Virus record (IMG/VR): IMGVR_UViG_3300020471_001410
Span: 1-24,325 of that record
Strand: one strand, 5' to 3'
From: a virus
DNA length: 24,325 nucleotides
Numbering within the stretch: the stretch's first letter is position 1; the number at the start of each line of letters is the position of its first letter. The translations under genes and the position numbers were made by a program. Positions 2,239 to 13,893 of the stretch are shown in pieces. Below the pieces are notes generated by a model that saw nothing but the letters and a program-made list of their open reading frames with translations, was not told the DNA's origin and ran no database searches.

Positions 2239-3624
2239 TTATGGATAGCTTTTCATGATCTGAGCTTGTACAGCAAATAGCTCTGTAGGCGATGGTCCTT
2301 TGTTTTCAATAATAAATCTACAAAAATGTCCAAGTAGCCCATATGATTCTGCCGTGTTATTTTTTACCCCAATTACATAAGGGTTACCAACTGTTGGATC
2401 TTGTGCGCCATTAATACTAGCGTCCACTACTATATTGTTTATATTAGAGCTTAAATTAATATTAATTTGACTCACCCTACCTGCTAGTTCGGGTGTATTG
2501 GTAAACTCATCGTTAAAATACAAGAAGTCTCCTACACTAAGAATTGAACCAATATTAATAGTTGGAGTGGATAAAAAATCAAATTGTCTTGCAGAAATTG
2601 CCCCGCTAAATCCACTGCACCTACCTATGCCATTGATAGCTCTTGACGCAAAGTTTGATATTAACGTAGGTGACTGGGTAGTATTTTTAATATCAGCGTA
2701 CCAAGAACCTTCTTTTAATTCAAACCACTCATTACTTATAAATCCACCCCCCTGTATGTCAGTGTTTAAAGTTACAGTCCAAGGCTCATCCGACTGTAAA
2801 TTTATTGTTTTGAACAGCTTAGTAACAATTGGCAACTCATTTATAACACTAGTTACCGTTGAATTGTATTGCCGACCATAAAAATTATTTCTAAGAGGGT
2901 TGGTATTATGTCTGTATAAATTGCCGCCGTTAAATGTGTAAAAGAAACTATTCATTCCAACCATATAATCTGGGTTGTAAGAGTAGAAAGATGGCCATCC
3001 TTTTGCTTGTTCACTGTAGGTCAAGGTGTATTGAGGTCCAAGAGGCACTATAGGCTCCGGTACTGGATTTGGAGGTATTGCGGTAGGTAAAGGCGTTGCA
3101 GTTGGAGGAAGTGTAGCTGTAGGCGCAGGAGTTACAGGCGTTGCAGTTGGCGGTTGGGTGGGTAAAAAAGATGGAGAAGGTGTAGGTGTTGCTGTTGTTT
3201 CTCCTTGTAAACACATTTTAGCTGTGCCCGAAACTCCAGGCCTGTCTGGCCTTATTTGAAATAGTATTAATTCATAAGCCCCTCTAGGCAGAGTGTCTCC
3301 AATTACTGGCGCCTGGAATGTTACAACATTTGCACCATATCGAGCTTCAGCTGAGAAAACTTCAGGATAAAATCTTACGACCTCTTCTCCGCTAGCGTCA
3401 ACAATAACTCCCTCGGCTCTAATAACATCAATAAAAGTATTATTTTGTGAAAATCTAAATGTTGCAGTAATACTGGGACGATTGGTTGCAGTAAACGTAA
3501 GTGGTTCTGGAACATTAACATACTGTCTTGTGCCTACTAAAAATTGTCCTGTTCCGGCTTGATAAAATGCCCCAGTATTATCATATTCATTAATTTCTCT
3601 AGTACAAACCTTATATATTGACAT
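2239..3624 (-). CDS. Tail-associated structural protein with Pro/Thr-rich stalk
   Basis: A 461-aa protein in three parts. Residues 1-140 form a beta-rich domain. Residues about 142-194 are a Pro/Thr/Ala-rich, mucin-like linker (TATPTPSPS, PTATPVTPAPTATLPP). Residues 200-461 form a beta-rich domain starting YSEQAKGWPSFYSYNPDYM and carrying FYTFNGGNLYRHN, RNNFYG and a C-terminus SYGLLGHFCRFIIEN ending MKSYP. The KGW-SF / YTF-GNLY / NNFYG pattern and the MKS-P terminus recur in structural proteins of Bacteroidota phages as I remember them. It is probably a virion tail or appendage protein with a flexible stalk between two folded domains. It follows the 767-aa glycosyltransferase by 17 nt. The linker is a plausible O-glycosylation target for the adjacent enzymes, which is inference only. 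Confidence 0.7.
   Translation of the reverse strand: MSIYKVCTREINEYDNTGAFYQAGTGQFLVGTRQYVNVPEPLTFTATNRPSITATFRFSQNNTFIDVIRAEGVIVDASGEEVVRFYPEVFSAEARYGANVVTFQAPVIGDTLPRGAYELILFQIRPDRPGVSGTAKMCLQGETTATPTPSPSFLPTQPPTATPVTPAPTATLPPTATPLPTAIPPNPVPEPIVPLGPQYTLTYSEQAKGWPSFYSYNPDYMVGMNSFFYTFNGGNLYRHNTNPLRNNFYGRQYNSTVTSVINELPIVTKLFKTINLQSDEPWTVTLNTDIQGGGFISNEWFELKEGSWYADIKNTTQSPTLISNFASRAINGIGRCSGFSGAISARQFDFLSTPTINIGSILSVGDFLYFNDEFTNTPELAGRVSQININLSSNINNIVVDASINGAQDPTVGNPYVIGVKNNTAESYGLLGHFCRFIIENKGPSPTELFAVQAQIMKSYP
3091..3150 (-). repeat. In-frame direct repeat coding Pro/Thr stalk
   Basis: A 15-base unit, aggcgttgcagttgg on the plus strand, occurs exactly at 3091-3105 and 3136-3150, a period of 45 nt or 15 codons. 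It encodes a Pro-Thr-Ala-Thr-Pro block in the linker of the 461-aa structural protein. The in-frame period suggests that stalk length can change by slippage or recombination without breaking the frame. Confidence 0.7.
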
Positions 3625-3628
3625 AAAG

Positions 3629-3644
3629 CAAAATTACAAATTTA
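3629..3644 (-). promoter_or_regulatory. Tandem -7 boxes before the 461-aa structural gene
   Basis: Two abutting minus-strand boxes fit TAnnTTTG: TAAATTTG at 3637-3644, overlapping the stop codon of the upstream glycosyltransferase, and TAATTTTG at 3629-3636, just before the ATG at 3624. The distal one would leave a leader of roughly ten bases; the proximal one would be nearly leaderless. No clear -33 TTTG is seen. In AT-rich DNA one of the two could be chance. Confidence 0.4.
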
Positions 3645-5945
3645 TTTATTAGTCTTTTTTAGGTGCGTTAAAGGTAACTCCCAAATAAAATTTTGATTAT
3701 CTTCTACACCTCCGCTAATTACTAAAGTTTCGTTAGCTTTTATCATTGTGGTTATAAACATTAAATTAAAGCCCACTTTAGAACTTACAAATGGTATAGG
3801 ATTTAAAAAATTAAATTCAAAATTTCTATTAAATCCAACAACAAAATGATTGTATTTTCTTTCAGAATATATTTTAGTATGTATTAAATAAACAAAACAA
3901 TCATACTTTTCAAAAAAAATTGGATTTGTTGAACCGCCAGTAGAAGTGTTTTGTGTAAAGTAAAGCTGATCTTTGGGTAAATCAGATGAAAAATTATTAT
4001 ATGTATTTATTATTTGCTTAAACTTTAAATTATCAAAATCAATACATTTATATATTATAAAGTTTGGAGTTGTAGAATAAACAAAATATAACTCATTTTC
4101 TTTTACAAAAAACAACCAATTTTTTTCCCACACCACTTCTTTATTTTCTACCCAAGAGATTTTATTAAGTTTATCTAAATGTATCTTTCCAAGAAAATTG
4201 TAGTCAGAATCCAGCAAACCCATGTTTGTATTAAAATTTGTGTCTAAATATGCAACACTAAAATAAAGTTTAGAATTAAAATAAAATGCTCGAAAATCTT
4301 CAAACTTATATTTGTTCTCTATATTGTTAATTTTAAATATTTTTTTATTTTTTACTTGTAAATTATAATCAAATTTATATTCAATTAATTCTGTTGAATA
4401 CCCGATTTTTTTCATAAATACTGTCCGTGAGGTATCTCTATCAAGTCTTGCGACACCTATATATCCATCACTATTTTTTTCTATGGTTAAATTATGTGAA
4501 ACAGCTGGACTAACTTCTTTTGGTAGTAAATTAATTTTTTTTCTTTTATAATTACCTCTCCAGGTCCCCGAAAACATGTGTGTTAACAGAACATCCTTTC
4601 GAGTTACTTCTAAAGGTTTATCACTTTTAAATGCATCACTGTGATTTTGATTTGATCCAAAAGCATTTATAGGCAAAAGTTCGCTGTTATTAATTTTATT
4701 GTTTATGCCAAAATATTCTATCATATGTTTAGTAAATCTACCTGGACCAGTATTATTTAAGACGCCATCCTGTGGAAAGTTTATTATGTCGTTAATTATT
4801 TTATTAATTGGCTCTTGTTTTGGAGCAGCAGCAAATGCCCAATTACAAACGCTTTTAATTCTATTGTTAATTTCTACACCTATTCCAGTAAAAAAAGTAT
4901 TACTTACAGGCAAGTCTGCTTCTAAACCAACTATTAGATTTTGATAACTAATCCAATTTCTTAAAGGTTGATTGCAATATATATCAGAGTCAACATATAC
5001 ACCGCCATTTTCCCATATATAACAGTATCTAAAAAAGTCAGACTTTTCTCCTCTTTGTTTTAATTTTTTATACGCATCATTATAAATGCTCGCAGCAAAC
5101 CAATTGTCTACCATATCTTGGTTAAAATATAATATATCATATTCAGGATTTAATTTTTCAAATGAATTAATCATGTATTCATTTATATCTAATCCGTCAA
5201 AAGTTGTAAATATTATTTGATTTGGTATTTTTTTAAAAACATTATTAGTTTGCACATAATGATAAAAAGGTTTATTATTTAATAAATCCATTTCTTTTCT
5301 GTAGTCTGCATATTCAACATGTATAACTGGCTTATCTTCAAAAGTAAACTGAGTTGTAACAAAATTATGTTGTAATATTTTTAATTGATAATTATTAATA
5401 TTAAAGCAGCCTAGTTCAAAATCTGTTTCTATATTTCTATTTAAAATAGTATTTAAGGATTTCCCGAATAAACCAGGTCCAGTGTAATCTAAATAAAATT
5501 TTTCTTTTTTATGTTGTATATTTATTACAGATTTATTAATAGCTTCCAAAAATAATTTATGTTTTGGTTTACTTGCAATAAATGCATTTGCTAACCATTT
5601 TTTTGCCATTGGATCATCCCGGACAACTACTAATTCATCAGTGTTATTAAGGTATAAATCTAAAGGTTTTAAACAAATAGTATCAACATCTGCATAAATA
5701 CCACCTTTAATATATAATACACAATATCTAAATAAATCAGCCTTGAATGCCCCTGGAATAATATTATCATAGGCTTTTAAAACATCTAAGTCAAAATATT
5801 TTTTAATAAAATCAATTCTTTCTTCAGCATTGTAAAATATGTATGAGTAACTTGGATTGTTAATTTGCCAACTTTCCCTTGCTTTTGACATTCCAGGTGG
5901 TGTAAATTCTGTTTCAAAAGTTTGGTGTATAATTTTTGGTATCAT
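3642..5945 (-). CDS. Tandem DXD glycosyltransferase fused to GH130-like beta-propeller
   Basis: A 767-aa protein with three modules. Residues 1-230 start IPKIIHQTF and carry FKADLFRYCVLYIKGGIYAD with D86-V-D88, the signature of the DXD sugar-binding glycosyltransferase family (Gly_transf_sug, PF04488, OCH1/toxin-type GT-A fold). Residues 240-470 repeat the fold: IPNQIIFTT, KSDFFRYCYIWENGGVYVDSD with D319-S-D321. Residues 481-767 are Asn/Phe/Tyr-rich and beta-like, with EDFR (549-552), EKNW (607-610), LYFVYSTTPNFII, GGSTNP (670-675) and LIHTKIYSERKYNHF. That pattern recalls the five-bladed propeller of GH130 mannoside phosphorylases, but catalysis is not assured. Both DXD motifs are intact, so two sugar transfers are possible. 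The ATG overlaps the previous glycosyltransferase stop by 4 nt (ATGA), so the enzymes are translationally coupled. GC content is visibly lower than in the head genes. Confidence 0.85.
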   Translation of the reverse strand: MIPKIIHQTFETEFTPPGMSKARESWQINNPSYSYIFYNAEERIDFIKKYFDLDVLKAYDNIIPGAFKADLFRYCVLYIKGGIYADVDTICLKPLDLYLNNTDELVVVRDDPMAKKWLANAFIASKPKHKLFLEAINKSVINIQHKKEKFYLDYTGPGLFGKSLNTILNRNIETDFELGCFNINNYQLKILQHNFVTTQFTFEDKPVIHVEYADYRKEMDLLNNKPFYHYVQTNNVFKKIPNQIIFTTFDGLDINEYMINSFEKLNPEYDILYFNQDMVDNWFAASIYNDAYKKLKQRGEKSDFFRYCYIWENGGVYVDSDIYCNQPLRNWISYQNLIVGLEADLPVSNTFFTGIGVEINNRIKSVCNWAFAAAPKQEPINKIINDIINFPQDGVLNNTGPGRFTKHMIEYFGINNKINNSELLPINAFGSNQNHSDAFKSDKPLEVTRKDVLLTHMFSGTWRGNYKRKKINLLPKEVSPAVSHNLTIEKNSDGYIGVARLDRDTSRTVFMKKIGYSTELIEYKFDYNLQVKNKKIFKINNIENKYKFEDFRAFYFNSKLYFSVAYLDTNFNTNMGLLDSDYNFLGKIHLDKLNKISWVENKEVVWEKNWLFFVKENELYFVYSTTPNFIIYKCIDFDNLKFKQIINTYNNFSSDLPKDQLYFTQNTSTGGSTNPIFFEKYDCFVYLIHTKIYSERKYNHFVVGFNRNFEFNFLNPIPFVSSKVGFNLMFITTMIKANETLVISGGVEDNQNFIWELPLTHLKKTNK

Positions 5946-7171
5946 ATTTTTACAAGAAGTTTTTCACCCCAACCATGTGCTTTGCTATAGGGCCAAAATA
6001 CCCAATGACTAGGTTTATTTCCATTGTATTCTCTTTGAATGTCAAGAGTATTTAGATTGCTGTTTAAGAAATTCGTGATTTCTTCTTGATTTATATCATG
6101 ACGATAAACTTCTTTATAATTTTCATCTTCAAATATTAAAGCTGCAAATTCATAGTCTTTATAAGGAAAATGGTTTTTGGTTAAAGTAATAATATGTTTA
6201 AATAATGGATAATATATTTCTTCTGGCCTACCAGGTGGCAACATATTTTGTCTACATGCTTGAGTAAGTGATCTATCTTTAAATCTTATACCTGAATATA
6301 TTTCGTAATCCTTAATAGTCCTTTGATTTCCTACATTAAAACCTTCAAAACTTTTTGCATTGCATGGACTGCACACTGATCCGTCTATACCTAATAAAGT
6401 ACGTGTTCTATCATGAGCACGGTTATTTTTATCAACCCATGTTTTATCATCATCCCAATGTTTTGTTCTACCGTTTCTAGTGTACTCATGCCATGCAATA
6501 ATTTTATGTGGATGAAATAAGTCATAACCATGAGTGTAAGCTCTTACTGCTAAAGTTATTTCTTCACCGTGAAAATATAACATAGGATCATGAGGAACTT
6601 CCTTGCAAAAATCGCCTAAAGTAAAAGCAAAGTGAGCAGAATAAAACCGAGCTTTTATTGGTTCAGTGTATTTTTTATCCATGTGATAAGGTAAAAAAAA
6701 CACAACACCTTCAGGGGTAAATCTATCAAAAGACATCCCCCAAGGGTCTTGTTGCCTTTCATCTGGATCATTTTCAGGGTTATAAGAGGAAATATAACTT
6801 GTAAGTAATGGCTTGTTAAAACCTTTTTTCTGTAAACTTTTGAGCATTTTTATACACTCTTTATCCCAACCCTTTATAAATCTATGGTGCGAATCTAACT
6901 GAAGAGTATATTTTTGATTGGTATAGTGTTGCTGTATTTGATTTCTTGCCCAACACGCTCCTAGTGATTGAGTGTGAGGTATGTCAATAATAATAAACCT
7001 TGCATCATTAGCATACTTTTCTAAAGTATCCCATTGATCTTTATCGCTGTGCTGATGTGCTATGCATATAGTTAATGCATCTGGATTGCTTGCGTTAACT
7101 AATAAATCATCAATTGTTGGTATTAACTCTGGGTCGCGATAACTCGCAATTTGAATAAATATGGATTCCAT
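5942..7171 (-). CDS. GlcNAc-type glycosyltransferase (PF11397-like)
   Basis: A 409-aa protein. Its N-terminus IFIQIASYRDPELIPTIDDLL is the hallmark of the Glycosyltransferase (GlcNAc) family PF11397, related to Skp1 hydroxyproline GlcNAc-transferase. The metal and nucleotide-sugar motif is LQLDSHHRF, with D93-S-H95 replacing a plain DXD. SLGACWARN (about 69-77), FHGEEITLAVRAYTHGYDLFHP and a His/Trp-rich AWHEYTRNGRTKHW follow, as in this family. No signal peptide or membrane segment is seen, so it should act in the host cytosol. Family members modify proteins or glycans; the acceptor here is not known. It lies 25 nt after the Pro/Thr-stalked fibre gene and is coupled to the 767-aa glycosyltransferase. 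A small tandem repeat (tttgattt-ca, tttgattt-aa) occupies 7171-7190 just before the start. Confidence 0.85.
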   Translation of the reverse strand: MESIFIQIASYRDPELIPTIDDLLVNASNPDALTICIAHQHSDKDQWDTLEKYANDARFIIIDIPHTQSLGACWARNQIQQHYTNQKYTLQLDSHHRFIKGWDKECIKMLKSLQKKGFNKPLLTSYISSYNPENDPDERQQDPWGMSFDRFTPEGVVFFLPYHMDKKYTEPIKARFYSAHFAFTLGDFCKEVPHDPMLYFHGEEITLAVRAYTHGYDLFHPHKIIAWHEYTRNGRTKHWDDDKTWVDKNNRAHDRTRTLLGIDGSVCSPCNAKSFEGFNVGNQRTIKDYEIYSGIRFKDRSLTQACRQNMLPPGRPEEIYYPLFKHIITLTKNHFPYKDYEFAALIFEDENYKEVYRHDINQEEITNFLNSNLNTLDIQREYNGNKPSHWVFWPYSKAHGWGEKLLVKI

Positions 7172-7196: not shown

Positions 7197-8330
7197 TTAA
7201 TACGGACGGTAAAATTCATTTACAAAAGATTCACCGTATGTTTCACGACCTTGTTCAATATCATTATTTGAATTAGTACATTGAGCACAACTATCTACTT
7301 TATATGCTCCTCCTAATACTACTGCGGTTGCCCCGGCTGTACCAGTTCTTTCAGGTCCAATTGTGTAACATCTCTGAGTAACAGGAGCGTAGATCGTATC
7401 TCCTGTATTAATTCCTAATTGTTGCAAGAATTGTGCAGTGTCAGAACTTATTTCAGTTGCACTTCCAAAACCTGGCGATCCTTCACACCTGTAGAGGACA
7501 AAATAAGACTGATTATCTGGACAAGCGAGTGCACATCCACTAAAGTTTGGATCTGTTTCGACTCTATTGTCATTGTCAACACAGAACAATCCGCTAACAG
7601 ATGGGAATTGTGTTGTGTCTTCCGTTTCACCAGCTACAGTATAGAAAATGCTACCGTCTGTAAGCCTTGTTCTTCCACGATATGTAGAAGTGGTTGAGAA
7701 TATAAAGCTTTCATTTGTATCACACCTAGTTAATATATAGTTAGTAGTTGGTGGACCTGAAGGCACTGGTGGACAACCAGTTTGTCCAGGATCTTCAGGT
7801 ATATTTACTATCAAACTTTGATCTACTGAAACTAATGGTGGATAAGATGAACTTTGTACATATTTATAAAAACATCCTGTTTGCGCTTCAACATACCTTT
7901 GATTATCAGTCAGTGCGGTGAGTGAAAATAAATATCTAATTTCAGTAGTATTACACGGTAGACATGGTTCCAATCTGTAATAAAATCCAGCAATAGGTGT
8001 AACAGTAGGTGTTGGAGTAGGTGTAGCAGTTGCAGGAACTACAGTAGGTTCTGGAGTTACAGCAGTCGCTGTTGGCGGTAATGGTTGAGGAGTAGCTGTT
8101 GGACTCGTTGGAGTTGGAACAAGGGGGGTAACGGTAGGTGTTGGAGTAGGTGTAGCTCCACTACAATTACAAGTTTCTGCTACTTGTAGTTTTCCGCTTA
8201 TCTGCTCTCTTGCAATAATGTCATCAGAATAAAATCCATCGGGGGCTAGTAAAGTTAAACCCTGATCAAGATAAACTGTGTTTGCATTTGCAAATGTTGC
8301 CGTGTCTAAAAAATATGTACCTACTGCCAT
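7197..8330 (-). CDS. Tail fibre-like protein with Pro/Thr stalk and three Cys-containing modules
   Basis: A 377-aa protein. Residues 1-58 (TYFLDTATFANANTVYLDQG, LLAPDGFYSDDIIAREQ, ending TCNC) resemble a short anchoring domain common in tail appendages of Bacteroidota phages, by memory. Residues 59-113 are almost pure Thr, Pro, Ala and Val (TPTPTPTVTP at both ends), a mucin-like stalk. Residues about 116-187, 196-272 and 275-351 look like three diverged copies of one module: each opens with Y-x-L-x-x-C or a close variant (YYRLEPC, YILTRC, YFVLYRC), has an internal strand around a second Cys, and closes with Cys-rich turns. The C-terminus is short and charged. Repeated beta modules behind a flexible stalk suit receptor binding. 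It lies 11 nt after the 1505-aa gene and just ahead of two glycosyltransferase genes. Its exact role is inferred. Confidence 0.65.
   Translation of the reverse strand: MAVGTYFLDTATFANANTVYLDQGLTLLAPDGFYSDDIIAREQISGKLQVAETCNCSGATPTPTPTVTPLVPTPTSPTATPQPLPPTATAVTPEPTVVPATATPTPTPTVTPIAGFYYRLEPCLPCNTTEIRYLFSLTALTDNQRYVEAQTGCFYKYVQSSSYPPLVSVDQSLIVNIPEDPGQTGCPPVPSGPPTTNYILTRCDTNESFIFSTTSTYRGRTRLTDGSIFYTVAGETEDTTQFPSVSGLFCVDNDNRVETDPNFSGCALACPDNQSYFVLYRCEGSPGFGSATEISSDTAQFLQQLGINTGDTIYAPVTQRCYTIGPERTGTAGATAVVLGGAYKVDSCAQCTNSNNDIEQGRETYGESFVNEFYRPY
8006..8156 (-). repeat. In-frame 22-nt direct repeat flanking the Pro/Thr stalk
   Basis: Identical 22-base segments at 8006-8027 and 8135-8156 (core ggtgttggagtaggtgta on the plus strand) lie 129 nt, or 43 codons, apart and in frame. 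They code Thr-Pro runs at the two ends of the fibre stalk. Recombination between them would delete most of the stalk without a frameshift. Confidence 0.75.
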
Positions 8331-8341
8331 AATATTTTAAT

Positions 8342-11300
8342 TTATACTGGACATGATACTGTAACTGTCCAATGAGTACCTGTAAACGGTGCAAAGACTT
8401 TAAGCGTAGCTGTGGTTGTAGCTGTACTTTTGGTAAAAGTTGCAGTTCCGTTTCCAGGTGACGTAATAGTTTCTGCTGGTAAACCTCTAGCTGCTAAAGC
8501 GCTGTTTAGTGAACCTTGGTATCCTGTATCACCTCGATATCCGGTGTTTATTACTTCCGATCCATCAAACTCTAATATAAATTTATCAGGAACTGTAAAA
8601 GCATCAAAAGTCAAGGTAACAACCCCAGTTGCTGCCCCTAAATTTATAACTTGAGTGGTAGGGAAACTTTCTCCGCCACTGTAACCTGTTTCGGTATTAC
8701 AATCAAATACTGGACCTACAGGTACTGTTCCACAACAAGCATTTCTAGCTGATGTAGAATCATAATTTAAAAATAATGGTGTTGGACTTCTGTAATCCCA
8801 TATCAAATACAAATTATCTCCAAGATTGTTGGGCATAGTAAATTCTGCATAATTTAAATCACCGCTAGTTACAATAGGAGAAGCTAAAGCTGATGAGCTA
8901 ATTAAAGAATTAATTTCAACAGAATTGTTATTATATTTAGTGCTAGATCTTAAAAATTTAAACTGATTAGTAGAGGCGTTAAATGTATAGTTGTCGTTTG
9001 CTAACTTATTGCTAATAATTTTTACATTTGCTCCCTCGCTTGGTATTGCTCCAGATCCTATTATTCCTGTAACTAAAGAGTATTGCGAAACTATTGGATC
9101 GGATGATGTATCAGATGAAAAGGTTATTTGGTTAGAATGTAAAGGTGATGAAAAAGTGCTGTCTTGCCAAGAGTATTGATTATGAATAAATTGGCCAGCT
9201 TCATTGTTACTTGTAATTGCTATGCTATATATGTTCAATGTATTTTGTACTGGACACTCAGTGGTTATTTGTATGGTATCTGAAACGGTAGAGCTTGTTG
9301 TAACTTTTAAAGTTACCTCTCTTACATCTACATTATTTTTATTAAACTCTAATGTACCACTTACAAAAACTAATCCTGTTGAAAAACTAACATTATTATA
9401 AATAGCTTCAATAGTATATCCAACTCCTGAATTTGTTGCCTCAGTTCTAATATCAAGTCCAACCTCCGATATAACTTCAACTAAACCTGTGCCAGCACTA
9501 GGTGTGTCTGTTTCGGTTATTATATTGTCTTCCTCAGAATCTGGAATAACATAATTTATTGCGACTGTACCCACCTCCTGAGTAATATTTACACAATATA
9601 TAGTCTCTTCGCCGGGATTTACTAAAACATTTTCTGTGGTTCCGCAAGGTAAGCAATTAGTAAAGGTTGTGACTTGCTCTGAATTACTAGCCAAAACATA
9701 TTCATTCATGTATGGATCAAAACCACCCAGCTTTTGATTTCCTATGCAGTTAACAAAAAAATCTCGAAACCAAGATCTCATTCCTGATTCTGAAATAACT
9801 GTTAATAATTCAGGTCCGGTATCTCCGCCAGTTAATTTTATTACTGCAGCTCTTTTAGCATCAGTAAAAAATTTATTATTACCATAAACTGCAAAGCTTT
9901 CTGGATTGCTGCTAATCCCAAACTCTTCATCACGAGCCACTTGTGTCCCTAAAACAGCAGGCACGGAAGTCAAAGCCCCTCCCCCACTCGCATCTGTTAA
10001 CAAGTCTTTGCCTTGTAAGACGTAAGATATTTTGTCTTCTTGAAGAGTTAGAATATCAGTTCTTCTACCGTGTAGTTTTTGTATTGGGCCATATAAATCC
10101 TCTAGTGGTTTAAAATTCAGTAATCCAAGATTAAATTCATTTAACTTATTAACATTAGACTCATCGTTAAAGACCCCGCTATATGTAAGATCCGCAAATC
10201 TGTGTGCCCTTTTATAGATTTGTGAAGAAGTAGTGCTAACCCGGTTACCAAAATTTATTTGTTTACCACCAACAGCATCCCTAATTTTATAACTCTCTAC
10301 TCCATTTCCAAATGCAATACAATTACTAAAACTAGTATCAATTATTGCGTCTTGAGGTGTAATTGGTTGTGCAGAGTTTTGAAAGTTTATATTTTGGTTT
10401 TGTACGTTGCCTGAATGCTGACCTTGATCGTCAATTGCAAAAGATTCATCACATTCGTACCAAACGTCAGGCAACGAATCGCTTGGTATAGATTCAAAAA
10501 CTATATTGTTTTCCGCTCGTATTACTTCTATATGTAATCTTGCTGAAGCCCTTCCTTTGCTAGTTCTAGAAAAAGCAACTGGACCCGTAGCCATTAAAAA
10601 TTGTTCTCCTGTAGTTGTGTTTTTTGCAAATCTCCAAAAATTTACAAACTGTCCACCATTTATTTGTGAATTTGGAAAAACACCACTTCGATTACTTTCG
10701 GTTACTGGATCATTAGCGTTAGTAAATAAAGTATTATCATATTGATTGGTAGTTACACCTTGAGAAGCATTACAAGCACCCCTAGGCCAACCATTACAAC
10801 TAAAGCTATTATTATTTAAACTATCAATAATATTTTCACCTTCAAAAAACGCTATAAAATCTGCATAATCCGTTGAAGCAATAAATTCATCAGATCTGCC
10901 CACAGGAAACTCAAAAAAATGTTGTTCACGATTTGAAGATGCTCCTCTTCTGTTGCCTTCGTATCTAAAATATACTCTACTACCCTCTGGTATAGTATAA
11001 AGGGCATTAGCAGATGATCCAGTTCCAGCAGGATCAGGGACAGTAATAGGAAAAGAAACACATGGAAAACGACCAGCACGATCTACCACCACTGTTTCTT
11101 CGGGATATTGTACAATATTTCCACCTAAATCCTCTTTATTGTTCGTGGCAAAATTTGTTGGATTTAATTTCATATAAACACCCGAAGGTATTTTTATATT
11201 TATTGTTGGATCTAATGGATTTGGTATAGTTAAAAAATTTGCGCTTTGAACTTGTTTTTCTAATACGGTAGTAAAAGTGCAATTTTCCCTAGGTCCATTA

Positions 11301-12859
11301 CTGTCGGATTTTACTATTAATCGGTCACCCTCCTCAATTAAGTTAGCGTTCTGACCTTCAAGCAAAAAATACGTTAAGTTACTATCGGGGTCTTCAAAAT
11401 AGACATTCGTATATATAGTGTTGTAAGTATCCTTGTCAGCCTTAATAACAAATTTATATCTAGTAGCCCAAAATGGTGCAATTTGAGGAGGTGTAGTTAA
11501 ACCACCTGGTATAGTCACTTGGATATTATTTTTATTAATTGCATCAGAACAATTAACATGAACCGTATTGTTTGGACTAACCAAAGCAGTGCTTGATCTA
11601 TTATATTCATCCATATAGACAATACCTATTTCATATCCTCGGTTACTATGTAGTGAAAAGTTATTAGTCGCACTAGTATATGTTACGGTCGCTGAAGTAA
11701 TCGTATAATATTCGTAAAAAGTTTGAGTAGGTGAGGCTAAATCGTCTACATACTGCATCGCTAATAATTGTAGCGACAATGTATTGTTGTTAAGTGATGA
11801 AAATATTTCAATTGGCTGATCAACAGCGCTAATACCACTGGCTTTTTTTAAATAAGCATCTAATTGATTGGGAATGATACAATTAAATACATCCGTGAAT
11901 GTAGCGCCATTGCATGCATTAGCTACAGTTTGAATATTTGTAGAGGTTCCAATTTTAGAAACAAAATCTGAACTCTGTGCCATTTCAGAAACAGAATTAA
12001 AATTCTGAGTTATATTATATGTAAAACCTAATGAGGCACTTGTTGTTGTTTCTGTGGGGAATGGAGTTTGTCCCGCAAAACTAAAATGTTCTATTTGTAA
12101 ATCAAAAGTTAAAGATGACCCTACTATTAAAGTTTGAGGATCTAATTCAACAGATAATTTGCCATTGTCAACAACAGTATAAACTGAACCAATATCAAAA
12201 CCTGCGCTGTCAAATGTAGGTGTAAAATCTAGGTTCTCGATATCCGTAGAAACTAAAGCAGTAGAAAAATTTAACTGTATGGGTTGATTGAATCTATCCA
12301 CTAAATTATAACCCTCAACGTAGTTACCAAATATTAACCTATTACCCATAAGGGTTTGCGCTTGAGCTAATAGTGGTACATTATCATACAATCTTAAAAT
12401 TTCGTTTTCCGGTAAAACAGTAAATATTTTTTGACTATCAAAAATAAAAGTGGATACTTGATTGTCTGCCAACCCTAAGTTTAATTTGTTTAATTTTTCT
12501 ACAACCTTTATTGTTGGATCATTAAATTCTTTAAACAATATCTCTATAGATTTAACTAAACTATCGCCAGTGTTGAAAGATATTTCAACCGCATTTGAAG
12601 AGTTTAACATACCTTCGTTTAAGTAGCTATCTACATTGAAACGAAATGATTGGGCAGTAAATGCTGGAGCACTAAACTGAGAAGTGGCAGAAAACTCTCC
12701 ATTAGCATATTGATATCTATAGGCAAAACAAACAAAACGATCTTCTAAAAAATTATTTTCTGTAGCTGACTTAAACGGTCGTATAGTCGGAGCGCTCGCA
12801 GGTGGTTTTTTAATAACCAATAAAGCATTAGCGTTAAATTGATCTATATAACTAGCCAT
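8342..12859 (-). CDS. Tail stabilization/muzzle-type protein, large C-terminal part
   Basis: A 1505-aa beta-rich protein. Its start (about 14-60: LVIKKPP, ENNFLEDRFVCFAYRYQY, FSATSQFSAPAF) continues without apparent loss the stabilization protein begun by the 344-aa ORF upstream. LPENEILRLYDNVPLLAQAQ (149-168), then MGNRLIFGNYVEGYN, are the block I most associate with crAss-like and related phage stabilization proteins. Further on, FFTDAKRAAVIKL and SGMRSWFRDFFVN followed by KLGGFDPYMNEYVL match the same family. After about residue 1100 come Ig-like beta segments, then a roughly 120-residue terminal domain (GYSGGESFPTT to the end) with FILEFDGSEVI, GYRGD and GNGTATFTKS, which looks like a carbohydrate-binding or adhesin-type beta-sandwich. 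It likely forms the distal tail hub. The ATG overlaps the preceding TGA by one base (TGATG), which suggests coupled translation. Confidence 0.75.
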   Translation of the reverse strand: MASYIDQFNANALLVIKKPPASAPTIRPFKSATENNFLEDRFVCFAYRYQYANGEFSATSQFSAPAFTAQSFRFNVDSYLNEGMLNSSNAVEISFNTGDSLVKSIEILFKEFNDPTIKVVEKLNKLNLGLADNQVSTFIFDSQKIFTVLPENEILRLYDNVPLLAQAQTLMGNRLIFGNYVEGYNLVDRFNQPIQLNFSTALVSTDIENLDFTPTFDSAGFDIGSVYTVVDNGKLSVELDPQTLIVGSSLTFDLQIEHFSFAGQTPFPTETTTSASLGFTYNITQNFNSVSEMAQSSDFVSKIGTSTNIQTVANACNGATFTDVFNCIIPNQLDAYLKKASGISAVDQPIEIFSSLNNNTLSLQLLAMQYVDDLASPTQTFYEYYTITSATVTYTSATNNFSLHSNRGYEIGIVYMDEYNRSSTALVSPNNTVHVNCSDAINKNNIQVTIPGGLTTPPQIAPFWATRYKFVIKADKDTYNTIYTNVYFEDPDSNLTYFLLEGQNANLIEEGDRLIVKSDSNGPRENCTFTTVLEKQVQSANFLTIPNPLDPTINIKIPSGVYMKLNPTNFATNNKEDLGGNIVQYPEETVVVDRAGRFPCVSFPITVPDPAGTGSSANALYTIPEGSRVYFRYEGNRRGASSNREQHFFEFPVGRSDEFIASTDYADFIAFFEGENIIDSLNNNSFSCNGWPRGACNASQGVTTNQYDNTLFTNANDPVTESNRSGVFPNSQINGGQFVNFWRFAKNTTTGEQFLMATGPVAFSRTSKGRASARLHIEVIRAENNIVFESIPSDSLPDVWYECDESFAIDDQGQHSGNVQNQNINFQNSAQPITPQDAIIDTSFSNCIAFGNGVESYKIRDAVGGKQINFGNRVSTTSSQIYKRAHRFADLTYSGVFNDESNVNKLNEFNLGLLNFKPLEDLYGPIQKLHGRRTDILTLQEDKISYVLQGKDLLTDASGGGALTSVPAVLGTQVARDEEFGISSNPESFAVYGNNKFFTDAKRAAVIKLTGGDTGPELLTVISESGMRSWFRDFFVNCIGNQKLGGFDPYMNEYVLASNSEQVTTFTNCLPCGTTENVLVNPGEETIYCVNITQEVGTVAINYVIPDSEEDNIITETDTPSAGTGLVEVISEVGLDIRTEATNSGVGYTIEAIYNNVSFSTGLVFVSGTLEFNKNNVDVREVTLKVTTSSTVSDTIQITTECPVQNTLNIYSIAITSNNEAGQFIHNQYSWQDSTFSSPLHSNQITFSSDTSSDPIVSQYSLVTGIIGSGAIPSEGANVKIISNKLANDNYTFNASTNQFKFLRSSTKYNNNSVEINSLISSSALASPIVTSGDLNYAEFTMPNNLGDNLYLIWDYRSPTPLFLNYDSTSARNACCGTVPVGPVFDCNTETGYSGGESFPTTQVINLGAATGVVTLTFDAFTVPDKFILEFDGSEVINTGYRGDTGYQGSLNSALAARGLPAETITSPGNGTATFTKSTATTTATLKVFAPFTGTHWTVTVSCPV

Positions 12860-13893
12860 CAGGATAAAGTATATGTTACGTCTTCAGTTAATGTCAGACC
12901 TGTTAGAGTAACAGAGCCAACCGACTCTGGCTGTTGTGTGTCACCATTACCGTCTGTATAAGATAAAGAAACAGAATAGTCACTAGACCAAGTTCCGCTA
13001 GTTCCATTATCTCCGACTATTGTACCGGATATACTAGAATCACCCGGATTAGATATACCGTTGGCGTTAATTAAACCAATGGAAGTGGTTCCTGCCGTAA
13101 CATCAGTAAAAAAATGTGTTAAGGCTAATGAAGAAGCCAAATTATTACCTTGTATACCAAACCCTTTAGTAAAAGCTGTTCCAGAAGTATAACAATCTAC
13201 GCCCGGTAAATTTATTACAGTTATTGTAGGAGAAACTCCTACACCGTAAGGGTCTGATCCTGTTGGGCAACCCGCAAGTGTGCCCTGATGAAAACCTATA
13301 AATTCATCCACCCCTACAATGGATTTTTTGGCTTGAAATTTCCACAGTAATGTAGATCCTGATGGAGGCGTACCATCTAAAAGTGGTTCTTGATAACTAA
13401 AATTAACATTAATAAACCTAGGAGGGTTAAAATTATCAGTAAAATATAAAAAATCACCTATCTTATCAACACCAGTTATTAACTTTTGTGGATTAAAATT
13501 TAAAGTAGTCCTAACACCACTTCCGTCATCTGTGCTTACTACATGATAAGTTAATGCTGTAGTAACAGTATTAAATGAACAAATCATATCACATTTGCCT
13601 GTATCAACTAAAGTAAAGTTTGGATCATGAACAAACCAATAAATAGTTTCATTAGCAGTATCAGCAAAAGATCCTATACATCTAGCGGTATTACTAAGTG
13701 CTTGTTGATCAAGAAAAAACAAACTTGTAATCTTTACGTTTCCTCTTGCATTTTCAACGGAACCAATTTCAGATGCCTCGGTAGACCCTAAACGTACATT
13801 AAGAGCATCTTCATATTCACCGTTTGGTATAAGCCTTTCATCAAGGCTTTTATTCATACGGCCTGCAATAAAATTCCGTTGCGTTTTAGCCAT
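12859..13893 (-). CDS. Tail stabilization protein, N-terminal part (split gene)
   Basis: A 344-aa protein opening RNFIAGRMNKSLDERLIPNGE, then YEDALNVRLGSTEASEIGSVENARGN. This is the characteristic N-terminus of the large stabilization protein of crAss-like and some T4-like marine phages. Beta-propeller-like strands follow (TIYWFVHDPN, DKIGDFLYFTDNFNPPRFINVN). After about residue 180 the sequence turns into a Gly/Thr/Ser-rich beta region (residues 190-344) without the family signatures, ending VTYTLS. The family protein normally continues straight into the KPP / NFLEDRF block, here supplied by the next ORF. So the gene looks split, probably where an extra beta-sandwich was inserted. It starts 1 nt after the gp4-like ring gene. 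A sequencing frameshift is possible but less likely, because TGATG is a natural coupling site. Confidence 0.75.
   Translation of the reverse strand: MAKTQRNFIAGRMNKSLDERLIPNGEYEDALNVRLGSTEASEIGSVENARGNVKITSLFFLDQQALSNTARCIGSFADTANETIYWFVHDPNFTLVDTGKCDMICSFNTVTTALTYHVVSTDDGSGVRTTLNFNPQKLITGVDKIGDFLYFTDNFNPPRFINVNFSYQEPLLDGTPPSGSTLLWKFQAKKSIVGVDEFIGFHQGTLAGCPTGSDPYGVGVSPTITVINLPGVDCYTSGTAFTKGFGIQGNNLASSLALTHFFTDVTAGTTSIGLINANGISNPGDSSISGTIVGDNGTSGTWSSDYSVSLSYTDGNGDTQQPESVGSVTLTGLTLTEDVTYTLS

Follow-up and report, generated by a model that had tools for sequence, protein, structure and literature searches.

The window analysed here is a linear, metagenomic virus record of 24,325 bases from a marine relative of the crAss-like phages; in a sequence search its relatives in the phage collection were chiefly Flavobacterium and Cellulophaga phages. 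Two open reading frames on its minus strand, ORF1 and ORF2, overlap by a single base at a TGATG (Table 1), as a sequence-only reading of this DNA had described. That reading took them for the start and the continuation of the large stabilization protein, the older name of what is now called the muzzle protein. The text of PMC7886860 labels a crAss-like phage protein a P22 gp10-like tail stabilization protein.

Profile searches agreed with this assignment. On the PHROG profile phrog_14478 (1474 positions), ORF1 residues 6-164 matched positions 3-151, ORF2 residues 6-1107 matched positions 159-1163 (621 bits) and a further gene matched positions 1136-1351. ORF1 also matched Pfam PF25731 (crAss_MUZ; 36.4 bits versus a cut-off of 27). 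By itself ORF2 gave no Pfam match at E 0.001, and it is ORF2 that, by its phrog_14478 match, holds the central region homologous to known muzzles. Judged by homology, ORF1 and ORF2 represent successive portions of the crassvirus muzzle protein. The earlier division into two parts stands for the N-terminal split but falls short in number, as the C-terminus is detached as well and the protein lies in three pieces. A single continuous polypeptide of the kind seen in gp44 of phiCrAss001 is absent in the window, where the muzzle is spread over three ORFs.

Table 1. Muzzle-related features of the window and neighbouring genes
Feature	Position	Strand	Basis or remark
ORF1, 344 aa	12859-13893	-	ORF in sequence
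ORF2, 1505 aa	8342-12859	-	ORF in sequence
TGATG junction	12857-12861	-	ORF1 stop and ORF2 start, A common to both
Muzzle N-terminal part (ORF1 residues 1-170)	13384-13893	-	PF25731; phrog_14478; gp44 up to ~155
Predicted added beta-module, ending at the stop (ORF1 residues 171-344)	12862-13383	-	AlphaFold2; conserved Cys209 and Cys234
Muzzle centre (ORF2 residues 1-1058)	9686-12859	-	aligned to gp44 ~156-1198
C-terminal extension, Cys-containing (ORF2 residues 1059-1505)	8345-9685	-	outside the phi38:1 and elemo single-chain muzzles
Putative third muzzle gene, 461 aa	2239-3624	-	PF25729; phi38:1/elemo homology
377-aa Pro/Thr-linked, Cys-containing protein between ORF2 and the glycosyltransferase gene	7197-8330	-	neither PHROG nor Pfam match
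GlcNAc glycosyltransferase gene	5942-7171		PF11397
767-aa tail-region protein	3642-5945	-	full-length match to phrog_28262 (function unknown)

The C-terminal end of ORF2, an extension of about 450 aa, also looks variable, since complete muzzle ORFs of the one-chain type in the contigs are mostly ~1470 to 2180 aa long.

Position of the breaks relative to single-chain muzzles

The pieces of the window align in order to phiCrAss001 gp44 (PDB 7qok, 7qol, 8ckb; PF25731 and PF25729), which, unlike them, is one 1371-aa chain and has no beta-module. A profile of 16 single-chain relatives was compared with gp44 using hhalign (probability 88.6, E 2.6e-6), and its columns 7-177 aligned to gp44 8-160. According to the text of PMC10172136, the muzzle is hexameric, and blades 2 and 3 of a seven-bladed propeller flank the IG1 domain of gp44 (residues 163-292). 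By alignment, the N-terminal break thus adjoins the boundary of blade 2 and IG1. Because the N-terminal part aligns to gp44 8-160 and IG1 begins at 163, this part should correspond to propeller blades 1-2, and ORF2 should begin with IG1. The closest annotated relative, Podoviridae sp. ctfjg026 (MW202828), is one of the single-chain relatives that had been proposed; here N-terminal part and centre form one 1551-aa ORF without the module, and the counterpart of ORF1 residue 170 is joined to that of ORF2 residue 5 across 9 nt. The C-terminal break was aligned to about gp44 residue 1198, which, together with the position of GGFDPYMNEYVLAS, is the basis for the end of the ORF2 centre. The centre would accordingly hold IG1, IG2, the crass domain and the middle blades. 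AlphaFold2 models of ORF1 alone were poor outside the module, with residues 52-125 aligning to propellers (Z up to 5.1). Sequence searches of the PDB, run with A2, A1 and MW202828 as queries, yielded nothing credible.

The third piece was recognised by Pfam PF25729 (crAss_MUZ_C), which matches the 2239-3624 gene at 66.3 bits (cut-off 27) and gp44 at residues 1244-1333. The encoded protein has a domain of its own at the N-terminus, then a Pro/Thr linker, then the muzzle C-terminus (residues ~199-461, window 2242-3030). It aligned to gp44 ~1199-1371 and is homologous to residues 1078-1323 of the Cellulophaga phi38:1 muzzle (E 9e-32) and to residues 1237-1469 of the elemo muzzle (E 7e-23). These two proteins, phi38:1 gp097 and Flavobacterium elemoA gp25, are homologous muzzles that, unlike the window, carry N-terminal part, centre and MUZ_C in one chain; they continue straight into MUZ_C at the point where ORF2 has its C-terminal extension. 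A profile found MUZ_C in 70 loci, counted as rows that overlap in contigs and of which several are cut by locus ends: it is a separate gene in 67, lies in the same chain in 2 (elemo and phi38:1) and could not be judged in 1. Among the 67 are the window, MW202828 (a 267-aa gene) and the cultured Cellulophaga phage phi13:2 (Pachyviridae). In phi13:2 a 241-aa MUZ_C gene directly follows the muzzle gene, gp120 and gp121 both being annotated as structural; the N-terminal part there is unsplit and without module, unlike in the window. MUZ_C was not found in L083 and L085 despite more than 5.4 kb of sequence downstream of the muzzle. With MUZ_C detached in 67 of 70 loci, the C-terminal break appears to be older and wider than the N-terminal one.

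The 2239-3624 gene could also lie outside the muzzle, another tail protein having captured the domain, so that the N-terminal break alone would concern the muzzle. The additional N-terminal domain and linker would fit such a capture, as would the several genes lying between this gene and ORF2. However, ORF2 itself is without the MUZ_C part, and the separate downstream gene is often just 257-278 aa long with nothing else attached, which makes a capture rather unlikely.

Conservation of the N-terminal split

In five close pairs, dN/dS was 0.02-0.16 for the N-terminal part of ORF1 (0.02 against locus L001), 0.05-0.25 for the module and 0.12-0.21 for ORF2. The low values of the N-terminal part indicate that it is still needed. 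Six longer records (39.8-58.6 kb) contained no second muzzle copy, each giving two matches, one to the N-terminal part and one to the centre, and no intact copy able to replace the split one was seen. These data bear on the idea that ORF1 is a separate adhesin or fibre outside the muzzle propeller, for which the sharing of its terminal module with unrelated tail proteins could be taken as a sign. However, its N-terminal part is the most conserved part, has the same motifs as the single-chain forms and occurs in no other copy in the six longer records; we consider a separate adhesin unlikely.

The sequence-only reading had further suggested that the two chains may accumulate in different amounts and so change the stoichiometry of the tail hub. 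Separate genes would permit separate dosage, but the part of ORF1 aligned to blades 1-2 of seven would be required once in each of the six subunits (PMC10172136, main text), so six copies should be needed. One copy per subunit is expected, and we regard an altered stoichiometry at the tail tip as quite improbable.

Relatives of the two ORFs and of the added region were collected from viral contigs. In a first classification of 231 loci and the window, the split form with the added region accounted for 103, and 115 had both parts but no added region; a one-chain form with the added region did not occur, and the remaining 14 were truncated, frameshifted or otherwise different. Likewise, no ORF joining N-terminal part, module and centre was present among the loci scanned. 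The split and the added module thus correlate across relatives. As the earlier reading stated, relatives do encode one polypeptide: besides MW202828, one chain runs through the N-terminal junction in 98 distinct sequences, all without the added domain. A two-gene form common to all relatives, which would have counted against that reading, holds only within the clade that bears the added domain.

Junctions were counted on 70 distinct nucleotide sequences from 176 rows. In all 70 an ATG lies -1 to +6 nt from the ORF1 stop, the gap being 1 nt in 30, 2 in 24, 3 in 8, -1 in 7 and 6 in a single sequence. The stop codon is TAA in 49, TAG in 17 and TGA in 4, and ORF2 falls into frame class 2, 1 or 0 in 31, 30 and 9 sequences, respectively. 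The TGATG of the window is also present in L001. Some N-terminal rows give an open frame of ~1846 aa in the same-frame lineages, the stop being present on direct reading of the sequence. Tight spacing is not peculiar to the split: a gap of 1 nt also separates the upstream gene from ORF1 in 35 of the 37 cases counted, L031 and L038 being excluded. Frameshifts occur in three loci: within the added region in L031 and L038, and in L153, which is of the one-chain type.

Programmed frameshifting or read-through of the stop might still yield a fused product. In the 9 same-frame sequences the stop alone intervenes, and in the window the frame of ORF2 is open for 24 nt upstream of its ATG. Nevertheless, the event required would vary by lineage (-1, +1 or read-through), the frames overlap for just 4-5 nt before the stop in 49 of 70 sequences and, by reading, the overlap of the window has no X-XXY-YYZ heptamer; production of a fusion is therefore very improbable. 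An indel near 12859, by which a sequencing or assembly error would have broken one frame, has practically no chance of being the cause, even though the record is metagenomic and L031 and L038 have frameshifts inside the module, as 70 distinct relatives share the two-gene form with differing stops, spacings and frames. The N-terminal split is genuine and conserved, and the proposal of two separately translated ORFs was supported.

The added beta-module and its history

Residues 171-344 of ORF1 consist of 42% Gly, Ser and Thr, versus 23% in residues 1-170, in line with the Gly/Ser/Thr-rich beta region that had been read as an addition at the break. AlphaFold2, using 42 sequences, predicted residues 179-344 as all-beta (pLDDT 95.4, pTM 0.90), and Cys209 and Cys234 are invariant in 42/42 module sequences. 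The added ~165 aa are thus predicted with high confidence to be an independently folding beta-module. In models of the whole ORF1 the module was again confident and the N-terminal part poor, residues 1-64 lying near pLDDT 30. A poor model of the N-terminal part alone is expected if it needs a partner; the low confidence may also reflect a shallow alignment (25 rows).

The module could not be assigned to a known domain. There was no Pfam or PHROG match in 21/21 members, a search of 50,697 phage records at E 10 was negative, and none was confirmed in genome contigs. The phage collection also contained no cultured phage with the split. Foldseek gave no match of weight (best E 0.21 in the PDB and 0.034 in BFVD), and VIA-align reached a best Z of 3.5 over 58 residues. 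The module as a known domain was hence rejected on family, sequence and fold, an absence that is no proof of a new fold.

In another phage group the module also ends small tail proteins of 261-307 aa with a Pro/Thr linker (L210, L214, L221, L227, L249 and L250), which adjoin a gene that is tape-measure-like by eye. Some complete ORF rows come from overlapping loci on one contig; of all 198, the module ends 0-3 residues from the stop in 197. The exception is L297, with 163 residues after the module, and a strict requirement for a free C-terminus was rejected on this ground. In L297 (4998-6020) a 340-aa gene begins with the module and immediately precedes the muzzle C-terminus gene, on a contig whose muzzle N-terminal part is unsplit (L150). 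A third context was observed in L307 (713-2041), a 442-aa protein in which a Ser/Gln-rich stretch falls within the module region.

For the muzzle tree, the 211 of 232 records that had both parts well covered were kept, leaving 122 rows after thinning at 93% identity. The one-origin test used 55 and the test of L039 and L044 used 53 of these rows. The split forms need 3 changes on this tree; despite this, one origin of all split rows was not rejected (p 0.48), and the N-terminal split may have had a single origin or two independent ones. Two single-chain muzzles, L039 (4712-10159) and L044 (8001-13433), nest within the split clade, with p 0.075 when constrained outside it; re-fusion or recombination may account for them. 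On the module tree the L084 clade joins the small tail proteins (support 96/94), which suggests that the module has been exchanged between tail proteins.

Proposed assembly of the muzzle

The muzzle of the window is a real, conserved, multi-gene form of a known protein. Sequence comparison establishes that all three pieces are homologous to single-chain muzzles, tile them without loss and are conserved. Taken together, the three genes probably encode a single muzzle subunit in pieces. From this we infer separate chains in the virion, their co-assembly, their stoichiometry and a display role. Separate chains in a 1:1:1 muzzle are likely.

ORF1 would supply blades 1-2 and, past a linker, the beta-module on a free C-terminus. 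ORF2 would be translated directly after the ORF1 stop, by termination-reinitiation or independent initiation, and would contribute the two IG domains, the crass domain and, bearing the gate loop, the middle blades. The last propeller strands and the C-terminal domain would come from the 2239-3624 gene. The chains would co-fold, presumably 1:1:1, into a hexamer; extra modules would therefore hang from the chain ends, ringing the tail tip and possibly contacting the host surface. On balance we lean towards a single beta-propeller gate assembled from three separately translated chains, in which the propeller loops at the break points serve as sockets for display modules that are added there and exchanged with unrelated tail proteins.

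The text of PMC10172136 describes the muzzle as the gatekeeper of crassvirus tails, likens gp44 to the ring-joining domain and seven-bladed propeller of the T7 nozzle, and attributes variation in muzzle length to insertions into the crass region and the IG2 region. In text passages of PMC10172136, PMC10136315, PMC7886860 and PMC8776804 we met no description of a split muzzle. In contrast to the reported insertions within one chain, the variation described here would break the chain twice, at propeller loops. In marine relatives, parts of this hallmark protein escape annotation models that expect one gene. The module, with its confidently predicted and unmatched fold, could point to a new tail display domain, and the split muzzle may offer a natural split-protein system for questions of gate assembly and host contact.
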